Shown here: in pieces, positions 1,807-30,515 of the stretch
Numbering within the stretch: position 1 is the stretch's first letter
How the letters are laid out: every line of letters begins with the position of its first letter
Origin: Gammaproteobacteria bacterium
GTDB taxonomy: Bacteria; Pseudomonadota; Gammaproteobacteria; Pseudomonadales; Azotimanducaceae
Reading direction: 5' to 3'
NCBI GenBank assembly: GCA_002715785.1
Contig: PBAA01000018.1
Location: 4,128-36,864, forward strand
DNA: 32,737 nucleotides
Position numbers and translations under genes: made by a program
The notes under the pieces: model-generated
The model's database searches: none
Told to the model about the DNA's origin: nothing
The model's input: only the letters and a program-made list of their open reading frames with translations

Positions 1807-2940
1807 ATGAGTTACGCTACCTCCGTGTCGGATCGTGAGGTGGGCATGAACGATCGTTATTTTGTTGAAGGTCAAAATCGAGCGGGTACGCTCGATAACC
1901 GTGGCACGTTGATTTTTGACGACGACGACCGTTTGGATAAACAAATCCTAGAGACATACTGGCGATGTGGCTTTTACGTCTTTGAGCGAGCGCTTTCCTC
2001 GACTGAGCGCGACGAATTGGTCTCAGATTTTGAGGCGTTACTTGATCGCCTGCCTAGTGATCGCGAGTCGAAGGTCGATCATCAAGGTCGGCCAGCCGCA
2101 GGTTTGGGCTTTACGAGGCCGAGCTTTCGTTTTGCAAAACCTCTGTCCGATCCGCATGGCGGTAGTGCGCTGAGTGGAGGCCGTTACGAGTCGAAGATGA
2201 CGGAGCCGAAGCCGCCAGATGACGCTCCCGACGAAGTGTTGTTGAATATTTCGGGGTGCCTGCAACTGATGGACGCGTGCCTTCGTCTGTATGGGCACCC
2301 ACAATTACTTCGAGTAGCGGAAACAATTAATGGCCCAGATTTCACGCCTTTTACCGACACTATTTGGGTGAAGCAAGCTGGTCTTGGTCCTTCTGTCGCC
2401 TGGCATCAAGACGGCACCACGCATTGGGATAAACCGGACCTCGATCGCGGGACGCACGGATTTAATTTCATGGTGCAGCTATACGATACGACCCCCGAAA
2501 ACGCGCTATGGGTGGTGCCTGGCAGCCATGACCGGGGAAAAATTGATATCAAAAAAAGAGTCGAAGAGAACGGTTCGGACCAGTTGCCAGACGCAGTTCC
2601 GATGCTTATGAAAGCCGGCGACGTAGCAATTTGTAATCGTCAGGTTCTGCATGGGTCCTTCGCCAATACGTCTGCTGCCAAACGGGCCACGTTTGTGTTT
2701 GGGTTTCATCGAAGGTCGTCGGTATTAGGCGTACAGGGATGGGCAAAAAATCCATACGACGAAGACTACGTGACCACACGTTCCCGAATCATTCCCATTG
2801 CCGTTGACGCGCGTTCTCAACACTTTGATGATGAAGATCCCTATGTTTATGTCCCGTTACGCGACGAAAGTCACCGGTATTCAAAAGAGACCCGGAAAGA
2901 CGCGATCGCGAACTACAATTTAAACGACATTGGTCTCTGA
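1807..2940 (+). CDS. Phytanoyl-CoA dioxygenase (PhyH) family Fe(II)/2-oxoglutarate-dependent oxygenase
   Basis: 377 aa. HxD motif in VAWHQDGTTHW; distal His and Arg in VLHGSFANTSAAKRATFVFGFHRR; typical PhyH N-terminus (YWRCGFYVFERALSSTERDELVSDFE). Confidence 0.88.
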   Translation: MSYATSVSDREVGMNDRYFVEGQNRAGTLDNRGTLIFDDDDRLDKQILETYWRCGFYVFERALSSTERDELVSDFEALLDRLPSDRESKVDHQGRPAAGLGFTRPSFRFAKPLSDPHGGSALSGGRYESKMTEPKPPDDAPDEVLLNISGCLQLMDACLRLYGHPQLLRVAETINGPDFTPFTDTIWVKQAGLGPSVAWHQDGTTHWDKPDLDRGTHGFNFMVQLYDTTPENALWVVPGSHDRGKIDIKKRVEENGSDQLPDAVPMLMKAGDVAICNRQVLHGSFANTSAAKRATFVFGFHRRSSVLGVQGWAKNPYDEDYVTTRSRIIPIAVDARSQHFDDEDPYVYVPLRDESHRYSKETRKDAIANYNLNDIGL

Positions 2941-3080: not shown

Positions 3081-5342
3081 TTATTGATGCTTGTGGAAAC
3101 GAATCAACGGCCCCCCATTTTTTTCCGGTACAACCGGTAATTCGATAAATGAAGGTGTCGAAACGTCTTGGTGGATTTTCTGCAGCGCCGCGACCGGACG
3201 TGTTTCGTAAGCGATTCGCGTTCCGGTGTTTGGATTACGGTCGAATAGAGGGAAGTTGCTACTAGAAACATCTAATCGAATCTGGTGGCCTTTCTTGAAT
3301 ACGTTACTCGTGGCACCTAATTGGATGGTGATGGATACCGGTTGATCGTTGGTGTCATAGGTGCGTCTGAGAATGCCGTCGGCAATATTGTAGGCTGATC
3401 CGTCAGGATAGACGTCGACAAGTTTTGCAGTGAAGTCTGTGGATGGGGCATCGGTTGAAACGACGAGAGTCGCGCGAACATAGCCCGTGACTTCGACATC
3501 TTCGGCCAAAGGACTTGATGTGTAGGAGAGTACATCGGGACGGGATTCGATCGAGTTTTGCGGTTTAATCGCTGTCCCCGGGCCCATAAAAGCGCCGCCG
3601 CGAGTGGGGACCGGATTTAGAGGATTGTAGGTAAATACGTCGGCTGGGAGAGCGTCAAAGAGCGCCTCAAGTGCAAGTTGGCCGTCACCGCGTGGTTCGT
3701 GGGCATTTCCGCCGCTTTGGAGAAACAACTTGGTATCGACGGCTCTTGGCAGCGGCCATGTTTGTTCGTCGCGCCAACGGTTGTCGCCCATGACGAATAT
3801 TCTCACTGGCGCAGTTTTAGGTGCGTCGCGATCGTTTAGGTGATAGTCAAACCAGTCAAAACTGTTAGCAATCGAGACGAAGCGAAAATTCATCGTCGTA
3901 CTACCATCCGGGAGGACTACATTCTTGGCGTGGCCCCAAGGTCCGATAACAAGCCGCGACTTCATGGATACCGCTGCGTCGGGATGACCAAGTAGGGCCT
4001 TGAAGTCGTCTAGCTGGGTCTGAAGGAACGGGTCGTACCAACCTGCTAGCAGCAAAACGGGTGCCTTGGTGGTGCTTGCACGCCGGGTACCGTCCACCTG
4101 GTACCAAAAGGCGTCGCGTTGACGGTGGCTCGCCCAGTCGTTGTAAAAATCCACGTCGGCAATGGACCGATCGTCGGCTTCAATCACAGGGAAGCCATTC
4201 GCGCCCCGCTCAACGAGCTCGGGGGTGACGTTTTCGAAGGATTCAAAGTGCACGGTGTTGGCCCACCACAAAGCCGACTGAAGCGCAAAAGCGCCACCCC
4301 GGTATAACGTGCGAAAAAAATCTGTACTCGATTCGTAAATGTACATGGCGGATAGTGAAGGCGACTCATTGTCCGCGATTGCCCATTGCGTATAACCGAA
4401 GTAAGAACCTCCCCAGGTCCCGACCTTCCCGTTAAACCAGCGTTGTTGAGAGAGCCAACGTAACGTTGCCTGACCGTCGTGACGTTCGTGGAGGAACGGG
4501 ACGTATTCGCCGCCGGACTCATACCGACCGCGCGTCCCTTGTAGGACGACGGTGAATCCTTGTTCTGCCCAACCTCGTCCGATCAGGCGTGCGAACAGCG
4601 TCTGTTTGAGGGTGTTCGTATAGTTCAGCCGCACTAGGATGGTCGGCTGTTTTATGCCTGCACGAATTGGGTGATACACGTCTGCAACCAGTCGTACGCC
4701 ATCCACCGTCTCGAAAGATTGGCCGGTTTGGACACGAACTGCGTGTAACGGAGCTCGCCCTGCGATCTTCCAGACGAAAAATGCAGGTGCCGCAAGATAG
4801 CTCACCCAAACAAAGTAGCCGCCGATAGCAACCAGCGAAATAGTGGCCCCAACGATTCGGCGAAGTCGCCGTGGTCGGGAAATAGACGGTGGGTTAGGTT
4901 GACTCCCTTGAAGCGAAATGGTTCGAAAACCCCAAGTAATACAATAACTTGCTAATACCCAATGGAAGAAGATAGGGATAGAGCCGCCGGTCCAACGTTC
5001 CAAAGGATAGAGCCCCATTCGAACCGCATAGCGAGTCATCATCACCAATAGGTAGATTACCCCGAAGACGATTAACGCCTTGCCGAACCGTCGACCACGC
5101 CGAATAAAAAAACCGGACTCTTGAGTGAAATTTACGTTGACCCACGTTTGTAGTCCGAGAATCGTCAATTGAAAGAAAAGAAGCGGGGGATAATCGACAA
5201 CACCTGAATACCATTCCGACGACGGTGGTAGAAAGTCCACGCCCCCGAACTGAACGAGCATCTGTCCGATGACACGCCCGAGAAAGAGCAACTGCAAGAA
5301 CCAAAGTAATCGGACTATCAGTCGTTCGTTGAGGCGCGGCAT
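3081..5342 (-). CDS. CocE/NonD (X-Pro dipeptidyl-peptidase-like) family hydrolase with an N-terminal multi-span membrane domain
   Basis: 753 aa. Nucleophile motif GTWGGSYFGYTQWAIA, Asp region LLLAGWYDPFLQTQLDDF, His region LVIGPWGHAKNV, then a C-terminal jelly-roll-like region. About 200 N-terminal residues are rich in hydrophobic helices. Confidence 0.87.
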   Translation of the reverse strand: MPRLNERLIVRLLWFLQLLFLGRVIGQMLVQFGGVDFLPPSSEWYSGVVDYPPLLFFQLTILGLQTWVNVNFTQESGFFIRRGRRFGKALIVFGVIYLLVMMTRYAVRMGLYPLERWTGGSIPIFFHWVLASYCITWGFRTISLQGSQPNPPSISRPRRLRRIVGATISLVAIGGYFVWVSYLAAPAFFVWKIAGRAPLHAVRVQTGQSFETVDGVRLVADVYHPIRAGIKQPTILVRLNYTNTLKQTLFARLIGRGWAEQGFTVVLQGTRGRYESGGEYVPFLHERHDGQATLRWLSQQRWFNGKVGTWGGSYFGYTQWAIADNESPSLSAMYIYESSTDFFRTLYRGGAFALQSALWWANTVHFESFENVTPELVERGANGFPVIEADDRSIADVDFYNDWASHRQRDAFWYQVDGTRRASTTKAPVLLLAGWYDPFLQTQLDDFKALLGHPDAAVSMKSRLVIGPWGHAKNVVLPDGSTTMNFRFVSIANSFDWFDYHLNDRDAPKTAPVRIFVMGDNRWRDEQTWPLPRAVDTKLFLQSGGNAHEPRGDGQLALEALFDALPADVFTYNPLNPVPTRGGAFMGPGTAIKPQNSIESRPDVLSYTSSPLAEDVEVTGYVRATLVVSTDAPSTDFTAKLVDVYPDGSAYNIADGILRRTYDTNDQPVSITIQLGATSNVFKKGHQIRLDVSSSNFPLFDRNPNTGTRIAYETRPVAALQKIHQDVSTPSFIELPVVPEKNGGPLIRFHKHQ

Positions 5343-5374
5343 GGCTGGTGACAGGAACGTCCTACCTATGAGAC

Positions 5375-6499
5375 CTAGACATTAGTGCCGAACAAGTCGG
5401 ATTTATAGCGAATTTCGAATCCGTTGGCGGCGACGTCGATAGCCGCACCGGGACACACAAGCCGACCGTTGGACCCGAACATCAGGGATTCGTCAGTGAT
5501 GTCTGTCTCAAGCAACAGCGTTCCAAAAGCGCCTTCCTGAGCGATCACACCGTCGTCAAATTCGTTCGCGAGACAAAGAGCGGCGCGGGTCAGAAGGCTC
5601 GTTTCGCCCACTTGCGCGCCGATAATGATCGGAATGTGCGCGTCAGAAAGAAGGCGGGCAATGGCACGTGATCGAATTAACCCGCCCATCTTGGAAACTC
5701 TGACGTTAACGAAGACGTTGTCGTTGGTTGTGTCGATGGGTTCGAAATGGCCTTTGTTCAAAAATGATTCGTCGAGAATAATCGGAACAGGCGTTTTTGC
5801 GAGCAAACGGTTGAGTTCACCAAAGGCGCGAGGTTGGAGCGGTTCTTCGAGGGCGTAAGGCGTACACGAGAGTTCACTAAGGTAGGCTAATACCTCCCCC
5901 GCGGTTTCCCAAATATTGTTGGCGTCGAGTCGTATACGGGCTTCAGGTGCGGCGTTTAGAACCAGCGAAAGCTTTTCGCTGTCGTTCTTTTCCTCTCCCG
6001 TGATTTTCACCTTGAAGTCGTCGAAGCCGAGCGCGACGTAGCGTGTAACAAGCTCAGCGAACGCTGTCTGGGAGTTATCTCCAAGGACCGCCGTATACTG
6101 AAAGGTGCCGGAAAGTGGCCGTGTACCGAGCGTCGCTTCGATACTCTGACCAAGATCTTTCGACATGGCGTCAAGTAGCGATAGCTCGATCGCACACCAT
6201 GCGGCTGGGTTGGTATCAATCTGATGCTCGTGCTGATCAATCCACGTGGCGAGGTCGCTCACGGAGTGGATATTGTCGGTGAGGTCGGTAGTGTGTTGTT
6301 CAAGAAACGCAAGGCAGCCAGAGAGGGTCTCGCTTGTCACATACTCTCGAGGGCATCCTTCACCGAAACCAACGTGCTCGTTCAGTGTACGGGTTCTTAC
6401 CAGTATCGTTTGGGTACGAGATCGATCAGCGCTGTGATGTTTGAAATTGAGACGAAAGGGAATCTCGAGCGTTCGTGCTTGTATGTCGCGGATATTCAT
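5375..6499 (-). CDS. Enolase-superfamily enzyme (mandelate racemase/muconate lactonizing subgroup; dipeptide-epimerase or N-acylamino-acid-racemase-like)
   Basis: 374 aa. KxK motif FKVKITG, metal ligands RLDANNIW / ALEEPLQP / ILDESFL, distal Lys motif VNVRVSKMGG, C-terminal IIIGAQVGETSLLTRAA. Confidence 0.85.
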   Translation of the reverse strand: MNIRDIQARTLEIPFRLNFKHHSADRSRTQTILVRTRTLNEHVGFGEGCPREYVTSETLSGCLAFLEQHTTDLTDNIHSVSDLATWIDQHEHQIDTNPAAWCAIELSLLDAMSKDLGQSIEATLGTRPLSGTFQYTAVLGDNSQTAFAELVTRYVALGFDDFKVKITGEEKNDSEKLSLVLNAAPEARIRLDANNIWETAGEVLAYLSELSCTPYALEEPLQPRAFGELNRLLAKTPVPIILDESFLNKGHFEPIDTTNDNVFVNVRVSKMGGLIRSRAIARLLSDAHIPIIIGAQVGETSLLTRAALCLANEFDDGVIAQEGAFGTLLLETDITDESLMFGSNGRLVCPGAAIDVAANGFEIRYKSDLFGTNV

Positions 6500-8181
6500 G
6501 GCACACGGTACGCCGATATATCGAACGAAAAATCCTTTTGATATTGCAAGATTAATGGTTTGAACTGGCTTTCTCTTTGACCTGCGGCCAGATAATGTAA
6601 TTTATACGCCTCGCTGGTCCCTGGTTTGAGCTGGACCACTTCTAGTTCGTTGAGGCGGCCACTCAATCGTTTGGTTTGGTATTCCATATTCATGTCCTGA
6701 AATTGGCCGTCGACGTACTCTGCGAACTCCTTCGTGTTGATATGCAGGCCGCTAACCAACTCGACGTAGATGAGGTATTTCATCTCGATCTCGTTGGCTA
6801 GCGCTTGATAGAAGCGCACGTCGACATCGAAGTGAGACTTGGCTGCATTAATCGCATCAATTAGTTGGCTTTCATAAAGCTTTTCGCCGGTAATGTTGGT
6901 GATGCCTTTACCCTTTTGGGAAAACTGAAGTGTGGGTGTCGACAGGAACACGCTGCCGACTGTGACGATGTCATTCATGTTGTAACGATAGAGCCCGGCA
7001 GGCGTAGTCACAAAAACGTAATACGACTCGCCGCTCTCAAGCTCGTGTAGGGCCAGGAACTTGGGTCGGCCCTGCTCCCACTCGTTTTTTTGCGCGAACT
7101 CAAAAAAATTCTCGCTAATCGTTGGGATGCCTTCGTTGGTCTGCGTGTCTAGCGTGATGGTTCCTCGACATTCGCTAGATAGGTACCCAAGGTCCGCAAC
7201 GCGGATCTTGGCGGGTAAATCCGGTCGAAGAGAATCCAATGAGATCCCGCAACTGCCTCCGGTCCAGGTGGTGACGAGTTTTAAAAAGGGCCACACATCT
7301 GCAAACGAAATACGATGGTTTTTCGCGGCGATGGCAGCGAGCTCTTTAGCACGCGTTGGATTTCGGTGCAGTCGACGTTGAATTGTTGTTCTAGTTTTTG
7401 CGTCGACTTCTTCCAAGAAGCGGCATGACCCTGTCGCAATATCGGCAATGAGCGCATCTAGGTTGTCGTTCGCGAGTTCGAGCAGTTTGTGGAACGTCGA
7501 CGGATTGGGGCTTGCCAGTAACGTGATGTCTTTGTGTGCAAGAGCCAAACGGCAGATGACGAGGTATTTGATCTCATAATCTTGGATAGAGAAAACGATG
7601 TTGGGTACGACAAACTTTCTTTGCGCTAGCCGGGGCATGGATTTATATACGTGTCCGGATGCGCTCCCGATGGGCGTGCCAGATTCTAAATAATCCTCGA
7701 TATCGGGACTTGCCATCCCGAGAATTCGACCTGCATATGCTTCCGGACAAGATTGGTATTGAAGAAACGTGAAAAGATTTTGCGAATCTTTCATTGAATC
7801 CAGCGTTTCCTGCAGTACGGGGATGTATTTGGGCCGGCCAGTGGTGCCGCTGGTTTGGTTGTACATAACGAAGGGCTTTGCGGTGAGGACGGCGGCCCGA
7901 GTTTTCTCTTGTTTTTCGATTAGCGGTCGCAGATCTTCGTACTCGTGTACGGGCACAATGTCCGCATAGTCCTTATGACTTTTGATCGAATCGAACTGGT
8001 GTCGACGACCAAATTCCGTGTCCGCATTGTCATTGAGTATTCTTTGGAGGGTTGTTAACTGAGTTTTTTGCGAGTTTTTGGCGTCGGTGACGAGGGGCTG
8101 ATAAAGCTTGCGACGAAGGACCCGCATTCTCAGGTCAAATAGGATATTGATGACGGAATCTGTGATCGAATGGAGCGTCAC
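6496..8181 (-). CDS. GH3 auxin-responsive promoter family protein (acyl-adenylating acyl-acid-amido synthetase)
   Basis: 561 aa. Adenylation motif MYNQTSGTTGRPKYIPV, YLSSECRGTI (GH3 motif II-like), LYRYNMNDIVTVG (motif III-like), and TNITGEKLYESQL, characteristic of GH3. Confidence 0.88.
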   Translation of the reverse strand: MTLHSITDSVINILFDLRMRVLRRKLYQPLVTDAKNSQKTQLTTLQRILNDNADTEFGRRHQFDSIKSHKDYADIVPVHEYEDLRPLIEKQEKTRAAVLTAKPFVMYNQTSGTTGRPKYIPVLQETLDSMKDSQNLFTFLQYQSCPEAYAGRILGMASPDIEDYLESGTPIGSASGHVYKSMPRLAQRKFVVPNIVFSIQDYEIKYLVICRLALAHKDITLLASPNPSTFHKLLELANDNLDALIADIATGSCRFLEEVDAKTRTTIQRRLHRNPTRAKELAAIAAKNHRISFADVWPFLKLVTTWTGGSCGISLDSLRPDLPAKIRVADLGYLSSECRGTITLDTQTNEGIPTISENFFEFAQKNEWEQGRPKFLALHELESGESYYVFVTTPAGLYRYNMNDIVTVGSVFLSTPTLQFSQKGKGITNITGEKLYESQLIDAINAAKSHFDVDVRFYQALANEIEMKYLIYVELVSGLHINTKEFAEYVDGQFQDMNMEYQTKRLSGRLNELEVVQLKPGTSEAYKLHYLAAGQRESQFKPLILQYQKDFSFDISAYRVP

Positions 8182-9071
8182 GGTGTTTGATCAATATCGC
8201 CTGAAAATGGCGTTTGCATTTGTGATACGAAGTCGAGCGGATAGCTTCGATTAAGCAATCCGAGTTCCTCGACGTGCCTTGATTTTGGAAGGAAATAGGT
8301 TCCGAAGAGGAGATCCCAAACAATAATATTGTTGCCGTAATTGGAGTTGGCTTCGTCCGATATGCGCGAATGGTGCCATCGATGCAGTTGAGGCCCACTA
8401 ATCAAGTAATTCAAAGGGCCTAATTGAAGCTCAATGTTGCAGTGTTGAAAAAATCCGTTGATGGAATAGAAAACAAAATAGAGTGCAAGTACGTCCTCGC
8501 GTACACCCAGGATGATGAAGGGCAAGGCGTCGAACAAAAATTGGAGTGTTTTATCGATGGGATGAAATCGCCCTACGTTTAACCAATAGAGCTTTTTCGG
8601 TGAATGATGAACAGCGTGAAATTTCCATAACCGACGCGTTTCGTGCATCCAACGATGCAGCCAATAGCGAAAGAAATCGGCGAATAGCACCATCAGACCG
8701 ACTTGCAGACCAATGTTCCACGCGTCTGGCCATAGGCCCAAGGTCCAGCTAGACGACTCTAGTGACGTAAGAACGTAATACGCCACCACAAACGATAATC
8801 CGCGGGGTAACAAGACCTGTACCACCAGCATAAAGAGAGCGTCGGCTGTAACGTCTGACGTTTTTGGTTTCCAATCGATCTTGTGCGGCGTCAGAAATTC
8901 GAACGCGATGACTGAGAAAGCGCCTAGGAAGACGGGCATGTACGTGCTGACATAGATCCCGGCACTGAGATTTAACAGGGTGAAAAAAATCCCGATACAA
9001 CCCACGATCACAATGGGATAGATCGAGTAAGACAGGTAGTGCGTTGCGGATTCCCTGAAACTCAAATACAC
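8178..9071 (-). CDS. Sterol desaturase / fatty acid hydroxylase superfamily membrane di-iron protein
   Basis: 297 aa, GTG start. Three His boxes HRWMH, HAVHH and HRWHH, with hydrophobic N-terminal segments. Confidence 0.9.
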   Translation of the reverse strand: MYLSFRESATHYLSYSIYPIVIVGCIGIFFTLLNLSAGIYVSTYMPVFLGAFSVIAFEFLTPHKIDWKPKTSDVTADALFMLVVQVLLPRGLSFVVAYYVLTSLESSSWTLGLWPDAWNIGLQVGLMVLFADFFRYWLHRWMHETRRLWKFHAVHHSPKKLYWLNVGRFHPIDKTLQFLFDALPFIILGVREDVLALYFVFYSINGFFQHCNIELQLGPLNYLISGPQLHRWHHSRISDEANSNYGNNIIVWDLLFGTYFLPKSRHVEELGLLNRSYPLDFVSQMQTPFSGDIDQTP

Positions 9072-9185: not shown

Positions 9186-10052
9186 TCAGTCGCGCCACCA
9201 GGCCACCTTTGCGCTTGGATTAATCACATCCCCGTCCTTGAGTACGTCGATGGGATCGCGACCGTCCACTCCTATACCAAATCGGTGGTAGCCGAGTAAT
9301 CGTTGGAGCATCTTGGGCAGCTCCGCCGCCACCTCACGCGGTACTGATAACAACTGGATTTCCTGCGGTCGTAAGTACGCAACGTTATGGCTCATAAAAA
9401 ACCCGAGGCGTTCTCGATCTTGCGAGGTGTTGGCACCGCCGCCATGCCATAAACCGCCTTCCCACATCAACATTGTTCCAGCGCGCATAGTGACTTGTAA
9501 CGTGTCTATTGATTGATCAACGGGTCGATCGTGCCAATTGTGACTGTAGGGAACAATGTGTGTGGCCCCGTTTTCGACGTCGAAATCGTCGAGCGCAATC
9601 AACGCATTGCAAACGAAGTGAGGATGCGGCCTCTTGATGGGCCAAAGCCCGTCGTCCTGATGCAGGAATTGTTTGGTTTCGCCCGGAAGTAAGTTGAACA
9701 ACGTCGTCACGTTAATTTGAACCCGAGGCCCGAGCACACCTTCGATGAGAGCTCGGATACGGCGATCAAGAAAGAGGTAGTCGACGGCACGGGTTTTCGC
9801 CAGCAAGTTATGTGCCCTCAAGGTCTTGCCGGTGTCTGTACCGATCGCTCGCATTTCGGTGATGCGAACTTCGGTATCAAATGCGTGACGGATCCGAGCG
9901 ATTTCTTCGTCTTGGATAAAATCGGGGATGATGGTGTAGCCCTGGTCCTCAATTTCGGCAACGCGTTGGGTAACGTTGACCCCCTCGACGACGATCGCTT
10001 CGGCTTCAGCCGTTGTCACGAACAGTCCCCTGCAGACCGGTGAGCGATGCAT
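9186..10052 (-). CDS. Phytanoyl-CoA dioxygenase (PhyH) family protein
   Basis: 288 aa. FLHQDDGLWPIKR (HxD) and LWHGGGANTSQDRERLGFF (distal His and Arg). Confidence 0.88.
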   Translation of the reverse strand: MHRSPVCRGLFVTTAEAEAIVVEGVNVTQRVAEIEDQGYTIIPDFIQDEEIARIRHAFDTEVRITEMRAIGTDTGKTLRAHNLLAKTRAVDYLFLDRRIRALIEGVLGPRVQINVTTLFNLLPGETKQFLHQDDGLWPIKRPHPHFVCNALIALDDFDVENGATHIVPYSHNWHDRPVDQSIDTLQVTMRAGTMLMWEGGLWHGGGANTSQDRERLGFFMSHNVAYLRPQEIQLLSVPREVAAELPKMLQRLLGYHRFGIGVDGRDPIDVLKDGDVINPSAKVAWWRD

Positions 10053-14552: not shown

Positions 14553-16004
14553 TCATGGGGTTGGGGGTAAAACGCTAAGTTCACGACGAAGAATCTCATT
14601 AACTTGTTTGGGATTGGCTTGACCGTTTGTTGCTTTCATAACTTGGCCGACGAAAAAACCGAGTATTTTCTCTTTGCCATCGCGAAACTGTCCGACCTGG
14701 CCGGGGTGGTCGCTGATTATTTGGGATACCACGTTTTCTAATTCGCTAGTGTCGTTTAGTTGTCGCAAACCTTGATTTTCGATGGTTCCGTCCACACTCC
14801 CACCTTCAGCCCATAATGTTTCGAAAACCGACTTCGCAATCTTTCCGGTGATGGTCTCATCTTGGATGCGTTGGATTAGTGTTCCAAGTTCATCGGGTGC
14901 GATTGGGACGTTGGCAAAACTGATTTCGTCGCGGTTGAGCGCGGCGGCGACATCACCGAGGATCCAGTTCGCGGCGAGTTTTACGTCGATCCCACGTTCC
15001 GCTACCGCGTCGAAGTATCTCGCCGCGTTAAGGTCTTCGATGAGGCGACCCTCTTCATAATCGGTAAGACCAAGTTCAAGTACGTATCGGTTTCGTTTTG
15101 CTGTCGGGAGTTCAGGTACCGTCACCCGTACCGATTCAATCATCTCGTCGGTTATGTCGACAGGCAAGAGGTCGGGATCTGGGAAATAACGATAATCGTC
15201 CGATGACTCCTTTGAACGCATGGATCGGGTTTCATCTCGCTCGGAATCATAAAGTCTTGTTTCAAGAACGACTTCGCCACCGGCGTCGAGGACGGCAATT
15301 TGGCGATCTATTTCGTACTCAAGCGCTTTTTCGACGAACCGAAACGAATTGACGTTCTTGATTTCCGTGCGTTCGCCGAGGGTCTCGACCCCCTTGGGCC
15401 GTATGGAAATATTTGCGTCACAGCGCATGGAGCCTTCGTTAAGATTGCCGTCACAGATTTCGAGAGTAGTGACGAGGCCATGTAGCTCTCGAAAATACGC
15501 AGCGGCCTCTGCTGCTGAGTACAATTCGGGCTCAGAGACTATTTCAAGCAAGGGCGTTCCCGCTCGGTTTAGATCAATTCCGGTAAAACCATCGTAAGCG
15601 GTGTGAATGGATTTACCGGCGTCTTCTTCGAGGTGAGCCCGCGTGATGCCAATCTCGCGAATCGATCCGTCGCTGAGGAAAATTGGTAAAGCACCTCGCC
15701 CCACAATGGGTTGGTCGAGTTGACTTATTTGGTAGCCCTTTGGCAAGTCAGGGTAAAAGTAGTTCTTACGATCAAAACGGCACGATGAAGCGATCTCAGC
15801 ATCAATGGCGAGACCGAACTTGATCGCCATACGTATTGGCTCTTCATTTAATACTGGGAGCACACCTGGTAACGCGATGTCGACGGCGTTTGCATTACTG
15901 TTCGGATATTCACCGAAAGAGGTAGCGGCGCGCGAAAATATCTTTGAACGTGTCGCAAGCTGAACATGAACTTCCAATCCAATCACGGCTTCCCATTCAG
16001 TCAT
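14553..16004 (-). CDS. gatB: Aspartyl/glutamyl-tRNA amidotransferase subunit B
   Basis: [24 protein letters not shown]..., [30 protein letters not shown]-terminal [13 protein letters not shown]. Start at ATG 16004 rather than the longer track ORF start 16112. Confidence 0.97.
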
Positions 16005-17439
16005 GTTCGTACGCCGGATGAAGTGCGTGCCAGTCGGTTTCATTTTGATATTGGCATCCGAGCGAGAGGATCGATGATTCGCCAAAATGCGGGCCAATGA
16101 GTTGCATCCCAACGGGCATTTGTTCTCTCATTCCGCATGGCAGTGAGAGGGCGGGAAGCCCCGCGAGACTGGCCGGGGTCGTGTAGATATCTTGTTGGTA
16201 CATCCCGACTGGATCTTCGATCAATGCTTCGCGTTCGAAGGCGGTTGACGGCGAGACAGGCGTGAGGAGGACGTCAACTTCCATGAAGGCGTCTAAGAAA
16301 TCCTGACGAATAAGACGGCGGATTTGTTGGGCTTTCAAGTAGTAAGCGTCGTAGTAACCCACTGATAGCGCATAAGTACCTGTCAAGATGCGTCGTTTAA
16401 CTTCGCTGCCGAAGCCCTCGGTACGGGAAAATTGATAAAGATCGTCTAGATTCTCGGGCGACGTAGTTCGATGCCCGTAACGAACACCGTCATAACGCGA
16501 CAGATTAGTCGAGGCCTCCGCTCCAGCGATCACATAATAAACTGCGATCGCCGCTTCGGTGTGCGGTAACTCCACTGGAACGCAGTCATGACCCAACGAT
16601 TCAAGTGTGTGACGAGCTGCTTCAAGAACCTTGGCCATCGAGGAATCGAGGTCGTTCCAGTATTGGGACGGGATGCCTATCTTCAGGGGGCGACGCGAGC
16701 TATCGATATCTGTCGCTTCGGCGATCGCGCTGGTTGAATCATTCGGATCGTGTCCTTCCATTGCGTTAAGTAAGGTCCCAGCATCTGAGGCCGTACATGC
16801 AATAGGCCCGCCTTGATCCAAACTTGAGGCAAACGCAATCATGCCGTAACGAGAAACTCTCCCGTAAGTCGGTTTTAAGCCGGTAACACCACAAAAACTC
16901 GCGGGCTGCCGGATTGAACCTCCGGTATCGCTACCGGTGCAAGCGGCGGCCAGGCCCGCTGCGACTGCCGCGGCTGAACCGCCAGAGGACCCGCCGGGAA
17001 CGCAAGCTTGATTCCATGGATTCTTTACCGGTCCGTAGAAGCTGGTTTCATTACTCGAACCCATCGCGAATTCGTCCATATTGGTTTTACCAAGAGTTAT
17101 GGCACCAGCCTTACGTAGCCGGTCGACAACCGTGGCGTCGTATGGGGCGACAAAATTGTGGAGCATGCGGGATGCGCAGCTCGTTAATAATCCCTCGGTG
17201 CAGAAAAGATCCTTATGGGCGATAGGAATTCCTGTTAGCGGGCCGGTACGCTTATCAGCGATGGCTTTATCGGCGCTTTTGGCAGCAGCGAGAGCGCGGT
17301 CGGAGTCAACAGTTATAAAGCAGTTAAGATCCGCTGCGGCATTGATTCGACCGAGATAAAAATGCACAAGTTCCTCGGCACTGAAGTCGCCGTTGTCAAG
17401 GCCAGAACGCAGCTGAGCCATATTCGCGTATGGGTTCAT
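15997..17439 (-). CDS. gatA: Aspartyl/glutamyl-tRNA amidotransferase subunit A
   Basis: 480 aa. Amidase signature [36 protein letters not shown]; overlaps gatB and gatC. Confidence 0.97.
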
Positions 17440-17717
17440 TCCACGACCCTTGGAACCAAATAGAGGCCATCACGCGTTTGTGGAGCTATCGCCTGATACC
17501 GTTCTTGTTCGAACGAGGTGTCAGGCTCATCGGGTCTAAATCGTTGGTTGACCTCGAGAGGATGTGCTAGCGGCTTAACCCCATCGGTATCGATGGATTG
17601 CATGAAATCGACCAATTCAACGATGGAAGATAAGTCCCGTAACAGCTTTTCGCGATCGTCTGGTTGCAACGAGAGTTGGCATAGCGATAGCAGTTTGTCG
17701 ATCGTTTGTTGGTCCAC
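17436..17717 (-). CDS. gatC: Aspartyl/glutamyl-tRNA amidotransferase subunit C
   Basis: 93 aa. Typical GatC length and pattern (LCQLSL...LSSIVELVDFMQSIDTDGVKPLAHPLE...R.D); gatCAB order. Confidence 0.93.
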   Translation of the reverse strand: MDQQTIDKLLSLCQLSLQPDDREKLLRDLSSIVELVDFMQSIDTDGVKPLAHPLEVNQRFRPDEPDTSFEQERYQAIAPQTRDGLYLVPRVVE

Positions 17718-17834
17718 TTTCAGGCCATTTCAGCGTGTCAGAGGCCGCATAATCTAAAACAGGTTCGGCGAATTGGCCAAGGTCTTTTATATGAGGACCG
17801 AAGCGCCAGCATACAACAAACAGAATCGCGATAA

Positions 17835-18947
<1,113 letters not shown>

Positions 18948-19045
18948 GCCGCCGTAAAGGGACGCCGAAACGCTATAGCGGCCCGAGGTTTGTTGTTGCC
19001 CTACTGTACAATTATTTTTCTGTACGAATGACCGGGTGAACGACA

Positions 19046-19876
19046 ATTAGGCGACTGTTTACCACTGAATCGAGTTCAAAGTACGTTCTATTTGCTCTGT
19101 CGTTAATTTCAGCTTGCTTGCTATTGGTGGAGTCCTATAACGAGACGTTACTCGACCCGCTAAAGCAAGGGGTTGCCATAGTCGCAAGGCCAATCCAATC
19201 GATTGCTGAAGCCCCTTATTTTCTGACGGACGCGTCGATCGATTTTTTCTCTTCTCGAAATAACTTGCAGAAAGAGAACTCTATTCTGGAAAACCGGATA
19301 CGCGAACTTTCCTATGGTTCGCAGCGACTGGCCGCGGTCGAATCTGAAAATACTCGCTTGAGAGAGCTGCTTGGAAGTCGCAAGCGCTTGTCCGGAGATG
19401 TTTTGGTTGCAGAAATTGTGGGAATCGATCCCAACATACAGAGGCGCGAGGTAGTTATTGACAAAGGGACGGTTGACGGCGTGCGGGTCCGTCAGGCGGT
19501 GATCGAAGCTGAAGGCTTGTTCGGCCAGGTCATTGCGACCACCCGGTCCAGCGCTCGGGTTTTAATGGTGTCAGATCCGAGGCATGCAATTCCAGTAGAG
19601 GTTGTTCGGTCCGGATTTCGTTCAATTGCGGTGGGAATGGGTCTTAGCGATCGTCTTTATCTTGAAAACGTGTCTACCACAGCGGATCTCATAATAGGCG
19701 ATGTGCTGGTTAGTTCCGGATTGGGTGAGAGGTTTCCCAGGGGGTATCCAGTCGGCGAAGTACGATCGGTTGACATCGACCCAGCGAGGAACTACGCGGA
19801 CGTTTACACGAGTATTCAGGCTCGGCTAGATACGAGTCGTCATGTACTTATCTTGTTTGACGGGATGGCCCCATGA
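19046..19876 (+). CDS. mreC: Rod shape-determining protein MreC; probable non-AUG (ATT) start
   Basis: ...RNNLQKENSILENRIREL coiled coil, VAEIVGIDPNIQRREVVIDKGTVDGVRVRQAVI, GLFGQVI. The ORF track begins at TTG 19118. Extending to ATT 19046 restores the cytoplasmic stretch and TM helix (xRRLFTTESSSKYVLFALSLISACLLLVES). Confidence 0.85.
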   Translation: MRRLFTTESSSKYVLFALSLISACLLLVESYNETLLDPLKQGVAIVARPIQSIAEAPYFLTDASIDFFSSRNNLQKENSILENRIRELSYGSQRLAAVESENTRLRELLGSRKRLSGDVLVAEIVGIDPNIQRREVVIDKGTVDGVRVRQAVIEAEGLFGQVIATTRSSARVLMVSDPRHAIPVEVVRSGFRSIAVGMGLSDRLYLENVSTTADLIIGDVLVSSGLGERFPRGYPVGEVRSVDIDPARNYADVYTSIQARLDTSRHVLILFDGMAP

Positions 19877-20367
19877 ACACGCCGGTTCGTGGAATCGTCG
19901 TTCTACTCATTCTTCTGATCGGACTACTTTTGACCGTTGGCCATTTACCCCGAGTGCTTCCGGACTGGATCGGGTGGTTGCGCCCAGAATGGATGGTGTT
20001 GATTTGTTTTTTTTGGGCAATCGAATTACCAGAGCGAATAGGCTTGGTAAGTGTTTGGGCGTGTGGATCAGTTATGGATGTCATGGTTGGCGATGCAATC
20101 GGTACAAACGGCGCCTGTTTAGCTTTAGTCTCGTTTGTTGGTTGGAAGCTGCAGTCCCGAGTAAGTCTCTATTCACCTTTCCAACAAATTGCGCTGATGT
20201 TTGTGATCTCTCTGGGCGTTCTTTGGATCAAGGCCGTTATTGACAATCTCTTCAATGGCGTTGCGTTTACAACACATATTCTAGTGAACGCGGCCTGCAC
20301 CAGCTTGTGGTGGATCCTAATATCTAGGGTGCTTGGCCGCGTCAAAACGCGGTTCGATATTCGGTGA
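19873..20367 (+). CDS. mreD: Rod shape-determining protein MreD
   Basis: 164 aa, hydrophobic, overlaps mreC by ATGA, in mreBCD order (RPEWMVLICFFWAIELPERIGL...). Confidence 0.92.
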   Translation: MNTPVRGIVVLLILLIGLLLTVGHLPRVLPDWIGWLRPEWMVLICFFWAIELPERIGLVSVWACGSVMDVMVGDAIGTNGACLALVSFVGWKLQSRVSLYSPFQQIALMFVISLGVLWIKAVIDNLFNGVAFTTHILVNAACTSLWWILISRVLGRVKTRFDIR

Positions 20368-20942
20368 GCGAAGCTCAGTTTATTTTAGCTTCGAAATCGC
20401 CGCGGCGGGCTGATCTTCTCCGGAGCGTAGGATTCAAATTCTTGATTGAGCCTGCCGACATCGACGAGTCATTAAAAGTGGGGGAGGGTCCACGAGATTA
20501 CGTCCGGCGTATGGCGCGATCGAAGGCGAGACATATCCGCGCGGACCTCGCCGTGCTGGGTGCGGATACGATTGTGCATGTCGACGGTGAAGTTTTAGGA
20601 AAGCCAGCAGATCGAGGTCAGGCTATTTCTTTTCTTGACAGGCTTTCGGGGCGCGAACACGAGGTCATGACTGCGGTCGCAATTTCTTTACGTGACCGAA
20701 TCGAAATCGTTGACGTAGTAACGAAGGTACATTTTCGCGATCTGAAGTCCGGTGAGGCAGCACGATACTGGGCAACGGGTGAGCCGCTCGATAAGGCGGG
20801 CGGTTATGGGCTACAGGGTGTGGGCGCAGTATTTGTGGATCAAGTAATCGGGAGTTACAGTGCGGTGATTGGGCTGCCGCTAGTGGAAACCGAACGCCTT
20901 TTGAGTTCGTTTGGTGTTGATACGTGGCGAAACCGTGCTTGA
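20364..20942 (+). CDS. maf: Maf-family nucleotide pyrophosphatase
   Basis: 192 aa. LASKSPRRADLLRSVGF, VLGADTIVHVDGEVLGKPAD, GEPLDKAGGYGLQGVGAVFV. Confidence 0.95.
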   Translation: MSEAQFILASKSPRRADLLRSVGFKFLIEPADIDESLKVGEGPRDYVRRMARSKARHIRADLAVLGADTIVHVDGEVLGKPADRGQAISFLDRLSGREHEVMTAVAISLRDRIEIVDVVTKVHFRDLKSGEAARYWATGEPLDKAGGYGLQGVGAVFVDQVIGSYSAVIGLPLVETERLLSSFGVDTWRNRA

Positions 20943-20951
20943 TTAGGTCAG

Positions 20952-22484
20952 ATGCGCCAAGATTTATTCATTGATGTGAACGAGTACGAGACGCGTGTTG
21001 CGCTTTATCGGGATGAAATCTTGCAGGAAGTGCATATCGAACGCGATGGTCGATACAGCTTAACGGGCAATATCTATCGGGGTCGTGTCAATCGAGTTGT
21101 TCCTGGCATTCAGGCCGCCTTTGTCGATTTTGGAGGCGATCGTTCAGGCTTTTTACACGTACGAGATGTAGTGCCCGGTGGCGTGGGCGGCGTCGATTCC
21201 GATAAAAAGGACGCAGAAGAAAACAGCCGAGACCAATTCGAAGACGCATTAGATATACGAAGTGCTCTGCACGAAGGCCAGTCATTGCTGGTACAGGTAA
21301 ATAAGGACCCTATCGCTGGGAAAGGCGCTCGATTGACCACCAAATTGACGCTGGCTGGACGGTATTTGGTGCTCATGCCATATAACAGCCGCATAGGTGT
21401 GTCGCAGCGTATTCGGGAGGAAACTGAACGAGAAAGATTACGTAATTTGATGGACGATTTTAGGCATGAAATGTCGAGTCCCCATGGATACATCGTTCGA
21501 ACGGTGGCTGAAGGAGTACCGATCGAGGATCTTGAAGATGATGTCGAATTTCTTGAGCGCTTATGGCGGCAGGTCACTGAAAAGGCGAAAGCTGCAGCAA
21601 ATGGCGAAGCTGTGTACCAAGAACTTCCTCTGCATACGCGTGCACTCCGAGACCTCGTTAATGCTCAGGTACAGTCGATCGCGGTGAACGACGAAGACAC
21701 GATAGAGCAAGTAAAAGATTTCGTGGCGAGTTACATGCCGGAATACATCCCGGGGTTAATGTTAGCGGCCGATAGCGAATATCAAAAAGACAAGCTGGAT
21801 GAGGAGCTAGCCAAGGCGCTGATGCGGGAAGTGACGTTACCGTCCGGTGGATATTTGATCGTTGAGAATACCGAGTCGATGTGTACGGTCGACGTAAACA
21901 CTGGCCGTTTCGTTGGCTCTAAGAACCTGGAAGACACTGCATTTAAGACGAACATGGAGGCGGCTCGAGTGATTGCCCGAGAGTTGCGAGTTAGGAATAT
22001 TGGCGGACTTGTCGTGGTGGATTTTATCGACATGGACGACGCGGTGCATCGTTGCGACGTTATGGAGACCTTCGAGAAATCATTTGAAGGCGATCCAAAT
22101 CGCGTCCAAATCGGAGACTTTTCGGAGTTTGGACTGGTTGAGCTGAGCCGAAAACGTACTCGTAAAACTCTAGCGGAACAGCTGGGGGAACCCTGTTTGA
22201 GATGCAGTGGTGAAGGGATTGTTAAGAGCGTTGAAACCACTTGTTTTGATCTGTTTCGTGCGCTGCACGCTGATGCCAAGGCGCGTGTCGAAGGCGCAGG
22301 GCTCGGACTGGTGTATCTAGTCAGGACACGTCAAGAGGTTGTGGATCGAATGGTTGGTCAAGAGTCAGGCCGGCTAGAGCAATTGAGTTCTAAGTTGGAG
22401 TGCGAAATTCGCTTTGAAGTTGAGCACGACGGGGGACTTGGCGAATATACGTTGGTTCGACTCTCTGACCCACAAAGCGGTTAA
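20952..22484 (+). CDS. rng: Ribonuclease G
   Basis: 510 aa. S1 domain NIYRGRVNRVVPGIQAAFVDFG, CTVDVNTGRFVGSKNLEDTAFKTNMEAA, EPCLRCSGEG. Confidence 0.95.
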   Translation: MRQDLFIDVNEYETRVALYRDEILQEVHIERDGRYSLTGNIYRGRVNRVVPGIQAAFVDFGGDRSGFLHVRDVVPGGVGGVDSDKKDAEENSRDQFEDALDIRSALHEGQSLLVQVNKDPIAGKGARLTTKLTLAGRYLVLMPYNSRIGVSQRIREETERERLRNLMDDFRHEMSSPHGYIVRTVAEGVPIEDLEDDVEFLERLWRQVTEKAKAAANGEAVYQELPLHTRALRDLVNAQVQSIAVNDEDTIEQVKDFVASYMPEYIPGLMLAADSEYQKDKLDEELAKALMREVTLPSGGYLIVENTESMCTVDVNTGRFVGSKNLEDTAFKTNMEAARVIARELRVRNIGGLVVVDFIDMDDAVHRCDVMETFEKSFEGDPNRVQIGDFSEFGLVELSRKRTRKTLAEQLGEPCLRCSGEGIVKSVETTCFDLFRALHADAKARVEGAGLGLVYLVRTRQEVVDRMVGQESGRLEQLSSKLECEIRFEVEHDGGLGEYTLVRLSDPQSG

Positions 22485-22617
22485 CTAAGTCGGACAACTA
22501 CGGGACGTGAAAGCCACAAAACGAGATCACTTGGCCACGATCGTTATTGAAAAATCGGACTCTGAGAGTTGATGTGGCTGACTTTGAGCGCGCCGAAGCA
22601 AGGGTAGGGAGGGGACG

Positions 22618-25600
22618 TTGAATCGTTCGCTAAAATACTTACTACTCTTCGTAATTGCAGTGCTAGCGTTCTTTGCCGGGGTTCAGCTCATCGGGAGAAT
22701 TTTTTCCGCAAATCTCACCGACTTGGAACCCACGATCAACGAATTATTGGCCCCTTACGATGTAACTTTGGAAGGAGCTAAGGGTGGTTGGAGTTACGTC
22801 AATCCGATATTTACCGCGCGTCGTATTACTTTCTCGGGCGGTCAGCTAGACGAGGTCCTATTCGAAATCAACCTTCTCAAGAGCCTTCTAAACAACCGCA
22901 TTGTCGCAAACAGGTTGATAGTCGGTTCGGCGCACGTTGGTGTCGAGTACGTAGATTCTGGATGGCGCCTAAGAGGCTCGGGGGGAACGGGCATGCCGGC
23001 GCCCGACATCCTTAGTTTTCTGGTCGATAGCCAAGACCTGCTTTTTTCAGCGGAGCTACAAGCTTTTCGTTACGGTAAGTCGGCATCTTGGGTAATCGGA
23101 GCTAGGAGCTTCAACCGCGACGGGCACCACCGTATTTCACTTACCCTCGCTCCAGACAAGAACTGCGTGAGCTGTAAAGGTCGTTTGGAGCTCGATTTTC
23201 GTGATTCGGTTTGGGGACGTAATGACGGTAACGGGCTAGGATTCGTGGATCTAACGGACGTGACTTTTGACGATGAAGTAGCTGAGATCCTTGGTCTTCC
23301 GGTCGGCAAATGGAATATGACGGGAGGCTGGAAAAAAAATGCAAGAGAGGAACTTTTTTCGGTCGAGATACTGTTTGAACGCGGACAGAACGACGACTCT
23401 AGATTTGTCGCGTCTGCGAATCTCAGCGGCAGCCTCCAAGGCGATCGATACCGCGGATCCATCAACATTGTCGGACTCGATCCGGTGGCAGGCCGTATAG
23501 AACTTTCGCCTCTCAGCGTACATACAGATGCTCGCGATCTACTGGAACTATTTAGTCCGGCAATTGAGTTGCGTACCTTATCGACGTTGGCGACTGGTCT
23601 CTACGGTCTTGACCACCCTGTTGGGCGTCGGATTAAAGAACTGGGTGCATCTGGCCGTTTGCAAGGAGCAGTTTTTCTTGTAGACCAACAGGGCACCGCA
23701 TTTGCCGCAGAAGCCGACCTGTTGTCTCTCAAGAACCATCGAGGAGGACCAGCTTCAGAGTCTGTTTCTGGATCAATACGCGGACATGGAAGGGTGATCA
23801 AACTAGATCTGGCTTCCAAGTCGGGGACAATCGCATTGCCTAAGGTGTTTGAGGACCCCCTACTCTTTGACGAGGCGGTGGGCCCGATCGTCTTTTGGAT
23901 CGGACGAGATTACGTTGGTATTCGCGGAGAAAACCTCAGCTTTACTACCGACGAAAGCATCATTACGGGCGGCTTCGGACTTTCGATGCCAAAAATAGAC
24001 GGACGCGAGCATCAAACCACCTTGGTTGCGAATGTGGAAAAAATGGGTGTTCGAAGAGCGAAGAAGTATGTCCCTATCGGCCTACCTCAAGGACTGAAAT
24101 CTTGGTTGAAGACTAGTTTGCGAAATGTCGGTTCCTTTTCGGCCGTTCAATTGGTTTACCACGGTCGCAATGTTATCTATCCAGGATTGCCATTGAGGCG
24201 AGCTGAACTTCTGGCGGACTTTGAGTCGCTGTCGATTGATTTCCATGAAGACTGGCCGCTGGTTTCTGCCGCTGACGGGCGACTTGAGGTCAGGGCTCGA
24301 GAAAGTCGAGTCGAGTTGCAGGAAGCAACGAGCTTTGAGGCGAAAGTTACTAACGCCGTCGTTTCGATACCGTCAAATGGTTCCTTTATCGACGCGAAAT
24401 TGGACGTCGTAGTACCCGTCCCTCGCGCGTTGTTATTTGCTCAGGAAAGATCGATGGAGCTCTTAGCTCCCGTAATTGGTGGTGGTTTGGTTGGTGAGGG
24501 TTCCCTCGGTATTGATGCCAGTTTTAGAGTACCGCTGACGGATCGCATGGGGGAGCCCGGAGACTTCCAGTTGAAGTTTGAATTCAATAATGTCGCGGTC
24601 TCACTTGATGATCCGAGCATGCGTTTGGACGCTTTAAATGGGGCGGTCGAGTATCGTTCGCCATACTCGATCGTAAAGAGCGATCTGTCCGCAAATCTAT
24701 TCGGCACGCCAATTGACATTGAAATCATCTCAGGGAGTAACGCAGACGAAGAATTCATGGGAGTAGCACTGACTGGGCAGTTAAAGGTGGCTGATTTGCT
24801 CGCTCTACTTGAAGTAAACAACCCGAATATTGCGACCGGAAACATGGAGTATTTGGCGAATTTATCGATCTTTGTGGATTCGGCACGACCGTCTGAACTG
24901 GGCTTCACATCCGATCTGGTTGGCGTCGGCCTAACACTGCCGGACGAGTGGGCGAAACCACCTTCGGTAGCACGACCTTTGGACGTCAATATTCAATTCT
25001 TGGATTCGTATACATCTGTAGCGTTCCGTCACGGCACGACTGCAGGATGGATTCACCTTTCTAACAATCGGATAAGTCGCGGATCGGTTGGAGTCGGAGC
25101 ACCGGCGATCGTCGTATCAGAAAACGAAGAACGTTTGGTTGTTTCCGGCGGTTTGGATTCTCTAGAAATCGACACGAAACTTGCTAATTCAAACGACCTA
25201 ATCGACTGGCGATTGAACAATTTTCGAATAGATGCGCTGCGGGCAGGCGCCGTGGAGTTCACAAATGCGATCGTTTCGGGCCAATCGGTTGGCGACGCTG
25301 TAGAAGTCCAACTGTCTTCAGACCAGATTGATGCGACGTTTGTTCGGAAATTCGACGATCCGTGGAAAGTCGACGTAGATGAAATTCGAATCGCAAATTT
25401 CAATCCAGTTGGGAATGCGGGAACGTCCGACCCATTGTCATTCGATATATCAGGGAAGATTGTGCCCGCGGACATTACGGTTCGTAGCGTGTTGGTGACC
25501 GATATCGATGGGTCCATCAACGATTTTGGCCGCTGGCGTTTTCGCCTCCGCCCGCACCCCGACGGGTTGCGAGTGCATGGGCTGGAAGGTGCAATACGCG

Positions 25601-26346: not shown

Positions 26347-26619
26347 ATGATCATCACAATCAAGATCGTTTGCACGAAGCCGCCATACCACTTCGGTTGG
26401 ATTGCGTTGATTCTTCATGGTCACTCACCATACGTTGACCGAAGATCTATTGTTATTTGTAGGTCAGAGCGTAAATCTGGTAACGGGCGATAGTCAGATG
26501 GTCGTTGGTGAAATTTGGGTCGATTGGCCTAAGAGGTTTGTCGCGTCGTACAGAACCCCGCCGTGGCGCATATACAGAAGAACTCCGAAGAGATGACCGG
26601 TTCGGGGGCTGCTACTGGG

Positions 26620-26892
26620 TTATTCAGCTTCTCCAAAACGATCAGCAACCATTGATATTAAGGCTTCAATTGCGTCGTCCTCGTCTTCCCCATTTACTTT
26701 CAATGAAAGGACAGTGCCCTTGTCAGCCGCTAGAGTTAATACATTCAATATGCTTTTTGCATCGACTAATTCGCCATCTTGAATTCCAATTTCAATGTTG
26801 CATCGAAATTGGCGTGCGACCCGGATGAATTTTGACGACGCTCGAGCGTGCAACCCAAGCTTGTTGACGATGGGGAGATTAACGTGTCGCAC
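26620..26892 (-). CDS. ptsO: HPr family phosphocarrier protein (NPr)
   Basis: 90 aa. NKLGLHARASSKFIRVA (active His), SILNVLTLAADKGTVLSL; in rapZ-npr context. Confidence 0.92.
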   Translation of the reverse strand: MRHVNLPIVNKLGLHARASSKFIRVARQFRCNIEIGIQDGELVDAKSILNVLTLAADKGTVLSLKVNGEDEDDAIEALISMVADRFGEAE

Positions 26893-27751: not shown

Positions 27752-28212
27752 TCTGCTAACGCCTCGGCAACCTGGCGTTGAAAAACTTCGTACAGCTCTC
27801 GATCGTCTTGTGCTTTTCGCAGATCCTGGGCATTAGGTTGAAGGTCGAAGACCCTTGCTAGAATAGCCAAGAGATCGAGATGCAGTCTGGTCTCGCGTTC
27901 CGGTACGACGAGAATGAATAGAAGGTCGACGTCTTGATCGTCAAAACTAATAGGGTTCGTCAAGTACAAAAGTGACGCGACTGGATGTCGACAATCCGGA
28001 TGTCGACAGTGTGGTATCGCGATACCTTCTCCAAGGTTCGTACTACCAAGCTTTTCTCGTGCCATCAGTGCCTCAAGAAGGTGTCGTGCGCCGATATCAC
28101 CTTGAGTCTTCGCGATCAGCTCAGACGCCACCTCAATAGAAGCCTTTTTGGACGCGGCGTCTACGTCTCGCCGGACACAGTTGATGGGTAAAATCGATAT
28201 GAAATCAATCAT
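27748..28212 (-). CDS. ptsN: PTS IIA-like nitrogen regulatory protein (EIIA-Ntr)
   Basis: 154 aa. LMAREKLGSTNLGEGIAIPHCRH (active His), FILVVPE; adjacent to rpoN and rapZ. Confidence 0.93.
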   Translation of the reverse strand: MIDFISILPINCVRRDVDAASKKASIEVASELIAKTQGDIGARHLLEALMAREKLGSTNLGEGIAIPHCRHPDCRHPVASLLYLTNPISFDDQDVDLLFILVVPERETRLHLDLLAILARVFDLQPNAQDLRKAQDDRELYEVFQRQVAEALAE

Positions 28213-28242
28213 GAACGGTTAGTAATATCTGAAACAGCTATC

Positions 28243-29736: not shown

Positions 29737-29782
29737 ATGCCGACCGGCTTGATGGTCACTATTGACTATTCATAATCGGAGG

Positions 29783-30508: not shown

Positions 30509-30515
30509 TGAGAAC

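Follow-up and report, generated by a model that had tools for sequence, protein, structure and literature searches.

Introduction

The closest described counterpart of the operon analysed here is the OlsH-OlsI pathway of Singulisphaera acidiphila, in which OlsH, a planctomycete GH3 protein characterised in 2025, uses ATP to turn free fatty acid and ornithine into N-acyl-ornithine, an activity seen only in extracts (PMC12493201). Thousands of GH3 homologues exist in bacteria with one pathway solved, and the authors of that study expect other amino acids to be used in most of the other clades (PMC12493201); we found no bacterial GH3 besides OlsH whose role has been proven. The operon considered here consists of four minus-strand genes, encoding a hydroxylase, a GH3 protein, an enolase-superfamily (MLE) protein and a CocE-type hydrolase. 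It lies in a 32,737-nucleotide stretch of DNA from a marine gammaproteobacterium (the window; G000:C18:4128-36864), in an assembly of 2.18 Mb that is 82% complete. A first-pass annotation had sketched a pathway for these genes and had called bacterial GH3 functions largely undefined, a statement that OlsH has made partly out of date.

Like the OlsH-OlsI pathway, the window operon combines a bacterial GH3 synthetase with an alpha/beta-hydrolase and a headgroup modifier, and the nucleotide-binding motifs are conserved between the two. The modifier is the OlsG methyltransferase in one case and an OlsE-like hydroxylase, usually fused to GH3 in relatives, in the other. The window module further differs in having a racemase-type gene in its core, a hydrolase of the CocE type, and a GH3 that falls far below the OlsH cut-off; the main text of PMC12493201 mentions neither fusion, hydroxylase, racemase nor epimerase. 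GH3-dependent amino-lipid synthesis is a kind of pathway already known; the fusion and the racemase-type partner set the present module apart from the solved case. Among open-access papers, which leaves an earlier description elsewhere possible, we found none on a module combining GH3 with an enolase-superfamily protein, epimerase or N-acylamino-acid racemase, and the module has apparently not been described so far.

We propose, with a probability of roughly 0.6, that the operon makes an N-acyl amino acid, either an amino lipid or a lipid-like small molecule, in which GH3 would join the two parts, the OlsE-like domain would hydroxylate, MLE would racemise and CocE would finish the product.

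A conserved module built around GH3 and MLE

The four open reading frames, their two 4-nucleotide overlaps and the 32-nucleotide gap lie exactly where they had been placed:

3081-5342, minus strand: CocE gene, 753 amino acids, ATG start
5343-5374: gap of 32 nucleotides between MLE and CocE
5375-6499, minus strand: MLE gene, 374 amino acids, ATG start
6496-6499, minus strand: GH3/MLE overlap of 4 nucleotides
6496-8181, minus strand: GH3 gene, 561 amino acids, GTG start
8178-8181, minus strand: hydroxylase/GH3 overlap of 4 nucleotides, GTGA stop/start
8178-9071, minus strand: hydroxylase gene, 297 amino acids, GTG start

All four proteins score above the Pfam gathering thresholds. Relative to the nearest relative (L002; Pseudomonadales, ALOHA), the ratios of nonsynonymous to synonymous substitution rates are 0.15 for the hydroxylase, 0.13 for GH3, 0.14 for MLE and 0.11 for CocE, which indicates purifying selection on every gene. 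The operon is real, conserved and coherent. A scan of its DNA for promoters and terminators gave nothing above chance.

A scan of GTDB species genomes yielded 74 GH3 loci. In the closest of these the hydroxylase, GH3 and MLE genes adjoin, and the remaining loci, mostly from Bacteroidales and Treponema, are without hydroxylase or MLE partners. Additional genomes brought the set to 92 GH3 loci besides the window, and these bore out co-location in other genomes, the check that had been suggested: an adjacent same-strand MLE gene is present at 34 of the 92 loci and a hydroxylase at 28, 27 of which also have MLE. The sole hydroxylase locus that lacks MLE, L092, is cut by a contig end. GH3-MLE is the conserved core of the module, and CocE, present at a minority of loci, is its variable part. 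These counts come from samples with differing thresholds and are not prevalences.

Loci with the module originate from at least five phyla: Pseudomonadota, Bacteroidota, Verrucomicrobiota (by label), Bdellovibrionota and Latescibacterota. A further locus, L008 (NZPK01000031.1), is labelled Gemmatimonadetes, but searching its phylum and that of the Latescibacterota locus L005 led to one and the same set of genomes. Carriers are few in each sample: 3/369 and 3/399 genomes (window genome included) and 2/398 (centre genome included). Such a sparse sampled distribution suits an accessory product.

In a tree of 35 GH3 proteins, all 22 hydroxylase-type rows form one clade with support of 100/98, counting L010, whose contig begins within GH3; the tree leaves out the Bdellovibrionota and Latescibacterota loci L134-L145. 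The hydroxylase-free GH3-MLE pairs L018 and L066 branch just outside this clade. The simplest history would be that the GH3-MLE pairing came first and that the hydroxylase joined afterwards. Pairwise distances of hydroxylase, GH3 and MLE across 17 loci are strongly correlated (r 0.80-0.86, Mantel p<=0.0002), to which common species history contributes as well.

At 23 of the 28 hydroxylase loci, the hydroxylase and GH3 are encoded in a single open frame of roughly 820-890 amino acids; the closest relatives, L002 and L003, are fused, as is L092 from the same genus. In most relatives, the counterpart of the window hydroxylase thus forms the N-terminal half of a fusion protein with GH3. Alignment of the junction with L002 and L003 reveals one base fewer in the window, which turns the linker into the GTGA stop/start, and the 8178-8181 overlap therefore appears to be a secondary split of a fused gene. 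The overlap had been taken as a sign of operon tightness; it is indeed present, but what it records is this split. The split may be real or may be an assembly error; that separate, touching genes exist in L087 (a single-contig genome) and L089 allows for the former, and the genes are also separate in L011. The fusion is strong evidence that the hydroxylase and GH3 domains belong to one pathway, in which they probably act in sequence.

The operon was lost as a block in G005, a sister species of the same genus. There, the DNA on either side (thiolase to PhyH, and PhyH/ABC) is intact, but the four operon genes are missing. A deletion scar is visible at L110:8493-8783, where the first 97 hydroxylase codons are left at 66% identity. 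Fusion, block loss and co-varying distances support the earlier proposal that the genes form one functional unit.

Two PhyH-type dioxygenase genes border the operon in the window (1807-2940 and 9186-10052). They were considered as operon members and rejected, being kept at the operon loss in G005 and absent from other loci; in particular, the gene at 9186-10052 is not a member, because it stays in G005 after the loss.

Properties of the four proteins

The GH3 protein matches Pfam GH3 (PF03321) at 204 bits against a cut-off of 23.6, together with GH3_M and GH3_C (PF23571/PF23572). The adenylation motifs that had been reported for it, TSGTTGRPK, YLSSE and GLYRYNMND (residues 110-118, 333-337 and 396-404), are present and fall in conserved columns. 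With three domains above curated cut-offs and three nucleotide-binding motifs, its sequence places it in the acyl-acid amido synthetase family. It shares domain layout and the three motifs with plant GH3 auxin/jasmonate amido synthetases (PDB 4b2g, 5kod and 5ech; E 2.5e-25 for 4b2g), but is bacterial, and its operon partners include a hydroxylase and a racemase-type gene. The best named family is OlsH (NF052613), for which the window GH3 scores 77.8 bits and two fused relatives 74.9 and 73.1, against an equivalog cut-off of 620. By analogy, its chemistry is likely to be the same as that of OlsH, though it is not classed as OlsH; the OlsH precedent also strengthens the earlier suggestion of an amide-forming enzyme. 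We consider GH3 a probable ATP-dependent N-acyl amino acid synthetase.

The hydroxylase scores 110.7 bits on FA_hydroxylase (PF04116; cut-off 31) and, with its conserved histidine clusters, can be assigned on sequence to the membrane di-iron fatty-acid hydroxylase superfamily. Its sole NCBIfam match is OlsE (NF052566), at 195.7 bits where the equivalog cut-off is 475. A rhizobial OlsE, which passes that cut-off with 544.5 bits, is 30-35% identical to it and shares H139, H143, H152, H155, H156, H170, H210, H230, H233 and H234; the plasmid neighbourhood of the rhizobial gene is unannotated. The two are alike in giving a full-length match, in their His motifs and in being membrane proteins; they differ in that the window protein lies below the equivalog cut-off and is fused to GH3 in most relatives. 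OlsE hydroxylates the ornithine-lipid headgroup, at C4 of ornithine according to the title of a 2018 paper by Holzl et al. that PMC12493201 cites. A hydroxylase acting on an acyl or terpenoid chain had been proposed; the hydroxylase assignment holds and is OlsE-like, whereas nothing supports a terpenoid chain, as OlsE modifies an amino-lipid headgroup.

The MLE protein scores 84.5 bits on MR_MLE_C (cut-off 29.4). Its AlphaFold2 model (pLDDT 89.9) has as best PDB fold match, with TM 0.82, the Bacillus cereus N-succinyl Arg/Lys racemase (2p88), which is also the best sequence match. K163 and K165 (K163xK165), K270, D192, E218 and D243 are invariant in 30/30 homologues, and this combination of KxK, a second lysine and Asp/Glu/Asp metal ligands marks the protein, at the sequence level, as a member of the MLE subgroup. 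H21, R26, R51, R267 and E322 are likewise invariant in 30/30, the first three being specific to the family. Fold, catalytic lysines and metal ligands are thus common to the window MLE, 2p88 and the dipeptide epimerases of the subgroup; the window protein differs in its identity of about 22%, the lack of DxD, the invariant H21, R26, R51 and N265xR267xS269K270, and GxxVGE.

In dipeptide epimerases the DxD motif binds the dipeptide amine. It is absent in 30/30 homologues of the window MLE, the region reading E322-G-[AGS]-[FY], and on this ground a dipeptide epimerase was rejected. Epimerisation of the conjugate by an enzyme of either kind had been envisaged; the N-acylamino-acid-racemase type is favoured by the fold match, and the dipeptide-epimerase option is weakened. 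MLE resembles the former more than the latter and is a probable N-acyl-amino-acid racemase. The loops that carry the R26 and R51 positions set specificity, and 2p88 has Tyr and Asp there (Y26/D51); this change in charge suggests that the side chain of the amino acid substrate is not basic, and R26 and R51 would predict an anionic or polar one in place of Lys, Arg or ornithine.

CocE scores 172.1 bits on Peptidase_S15 (cut-off 23), 141.2 on PepX_C (22.5) and 393.5 on TIGR00976 (66.3). These scores and a Ser-Asp-His triad, conserved in 6 homologues, place its sequence among the CocE/NonD hydrolases. It consists of two main parts:

4893-5342, minus strand: N-terminal four-helix membrane domain, residues 1-150
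3126-4709, minus strand: catalytic domain, residues 212-739; the triad residues lie in GGSYFG (Ser), GWYD (Asp) and GPWGH (His)

Catalytic and C-terminal domains and the triad are shared with cocaine esterase CocE (3ida) and the alpha-amino-acid ester hydrolases (1mpx); unlike these, the window CocE is membrane-tethered by a four-helix domain. That domain matches no Pfam family, and among PDB folds nothing credible came up, the best match having an E of 1.4. It defines a family of about 145 amino acids with 20 invariant residues and is encoded by its own gene at five other loci:

L008:3935-4366, four-helix protein gene
L011:2041-2478, four-helix protein gene
L088:11407-11853, four-helix protein gene
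L089:394-822, four-helix protein gene
L096:12905-13375, four-helix protein gene

The gene order in L096 is membrane protein, CocE, fusion and MLE, and its CocE protein starts with a signal-peptide-like stretch. The window CocE has a further hydrophobic segment (residues 163-181) ahead of the catalytic domain, and these two features point to a catalytic domain that is probably periplasmic. Action at or beyond the membrane, in line with the role first given to CocE, is supported, and CocE would be a variable finishing enzyme. The first-pass annotation had noted neither of the two fusions: that of hydroxylase and GH3 in most relatives, and that of membrane domain and hydrolase in CocE itself, which are separate genes in L096.

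Accessory genes at other loci

None of the loci seen has both CocE and a CAT-like acyltransferase. Bacteroidota loci have a P450 and the CAT-like acyltransferase upstream. LCM-type methyltransferases are found at L007 and L015, and in Bdellovibrionota there is an ICMT-type methyltransferase in L136, with homologues in L137 and L138, and an MMPL exporter in L137. S33 hydrolases whose N-termini resemble signal peptides accompany the hydroxylase-free GH3-MLE pairs L018, L066, L139 and L140. Two unrelated families of carboxyl methyltransferase beside the core are to be expected if the core product has a free carboxylate, as an N-acyl amino acid would. Taken together, the accessory enzymes fit an N-acyl amino acid that bears a hydroxyl as well as a free carboxylate. 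Methylation would follow MLE, because racemisation needs the free carboxylate.

Several further genes were observed at these loci. Large proteins without a confident Pfam family are encoded directly upstream of the fused gene in Bdellovibrionota (L136:4381-7428 and L137:10692-11975). At two GH3-MLE loci of Bdellovibrionota, GH3 is directly preceded by a divergent FAA_hydrolase-like gene on the other strand (L018:5234-6544 and L066:6834-7949). P450 genes convergent with GH3-MLE in the Latescibacterota group (L144:6778-8139 and L145:10421-11782) echo those of Bacteroidota.

Proposed pathway and alternatives

The N-acyl amino acid pathway is our reading of the observed gene content, fusion, conservation, block loss, family membership and intact catalytic residues; all reactions and the sequence in which they occur are proposals, as are the identities of acid, amino acid and product. 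GH3 would activate a carboxylic acid, probably a fatty acid, as acyl-AMP and couple it with an amino acid through the latter's amine. At the membrane, the headgroup or the acyl chain would be hydroxylated by the OlsE-like membrane protein. MLE would then act on the N-acyl amino acid and racemise its alpha carbon through a 1,1-proton transfer that relies on K165 and K270, while Mg2+ holds the free carboxylate; a metal-bound carboxylate and an amide carbonyl are features of these racemases (PMC8142540). CocE, tethered by its four-helix domain and facing the periplasm, may hydrolyse or transfer an ester of the product. The scheme of the first-pass annotation is thus partly supported, right in outline, with chemistry order and product still conjectural.

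Four points weigh against this pathway. MLE-subgroup enzymes with the same lysines also carry out lactonisation and o-succinylbenzoate synthesis. The invariant R26 and R51 do not match the N-succinyl-Arg/Lys racemase, so the amino acid cannot be assigned. CocE is absent at most loci. Finally, the OlsH and OlsE precedents may not transfer, because GH3 and the hydroxylase lie far below the respective cut-offs.

More tentatively, and at somewhat less than even odds, the module as a whole may be a rare but phylogenetically wide (at least five phyla) lipid or signal pathway, in which a fused membrane protein builds and hydroxylates an N-acyl amino acid, a dedicated racemase subfamily converts it to the D form, and methylation, acylation, export or periplasmic hydrolysis follows in a lineage-specific manner. 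If so, it would be the first pathway to combine GH3 with a racemase, and D-configured amino lipids would be made by it. Such lipids, or N-acyl amino acid signals, would then be present in marine, freshwater and Bdellovibrio-group bacteria. The racemases would constitute a new subfamily, whose specificity residues are invariant, and a new family of membrane proteins would be added as well. For testing, the module offers a well-defined set: the fused hydroxylase-synthetase and the racemase-type protein that constantly accompanies it.

It is possible, though less likely than not, that the same chemistry serves another role, and that the product is not a structural membrane lipid but a small molecule that is secreted (a signal, antibiotic or surfactant; in some lineages, e.g., the methyl ester of an N-acyl amino acid). 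The sparse, accessory distribution and the loss of the operon in the congener G005 would fit, as would the carboxyl methyltransferases, P450, MMPL exporter and periplasmic hydrolases of other lineages. The window version, however, is without methyltransferase, exporter or regulator, and minor membrane lipids show rarity too.

An ornithine-lipid pathway is improbable. Here, lyso-ornithine lipid would be made by GH3 as a divergent OlsH, the hydroxylase would correspond to a divergent OlsE, and the role of OlsI (Sinac_1601) would fall to CocE as O-acyltransferase. OlsH and OlsE are indeed the best NCBIfam matches of GH3 and the hydroxylase, but with scores of 77.8 against 620 and 195.7 against 475. 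OlsI is an alpha/beta hydrolase that works as an acyltransferase (PMC12493201), and CocE has the same fold class; the NCBIfam matches of CocE include none named OlsI, a direct comparison with the OlsI sequence not having been made. No OlsB/OlsF-type N-acyltransferase was found in the window genome, an absence that is weak because that genome is 82% complete. PF13444 N-acyltransferases occur in 6 of 14 searched carrier genomes, including some of 623 amino acids, the size of OlsF; a second route would be redundant there, and the module is therefore not a simple replacement of classical ornithine-lipid synthesis. In addition, known ornithine-lipid pathways do not need a racemase, and an Arg of MLE stands in the place of an Asp in the racemase for basic amino acids.

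Least probable of all is a catabolic operon that degrades or detoxifies a hydrophobic acid or ester, with GH3 acyl-adenylating, MLE a cycloisomerase and CocE the first esterase. The CocE and MLE families do have xenobiotic-degrading members, and the genes beside the operon, for PhyH dioxygenases, thiolase and an OB-fold protein, have a catabolic look. Those neighbours, however, outlast the loss of the operon and are not carried along with it elsewhere. Amide formation is the reaction of the GH3 enzymes characterised so far, and the window GH3 retains every domain of the family. The hydroxylase-GH3 fusion, too, better fits sequential biosynthetic steps.

Genome context

Besides PhyH, the flanking genes include those for a thiolase and an OB-fold protein. 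Farther along the window, at 14553-32719, Pfam matches are largely to ordinary housekeeping functions: GatB, amidase (GatA), MreBCD, Maf, RNase E/G, YhdP, RapZ, PTS IIA, sigma-54, an ABC ATPase, LptC, a HAD hydrolase and a Na/Ca exchanger.

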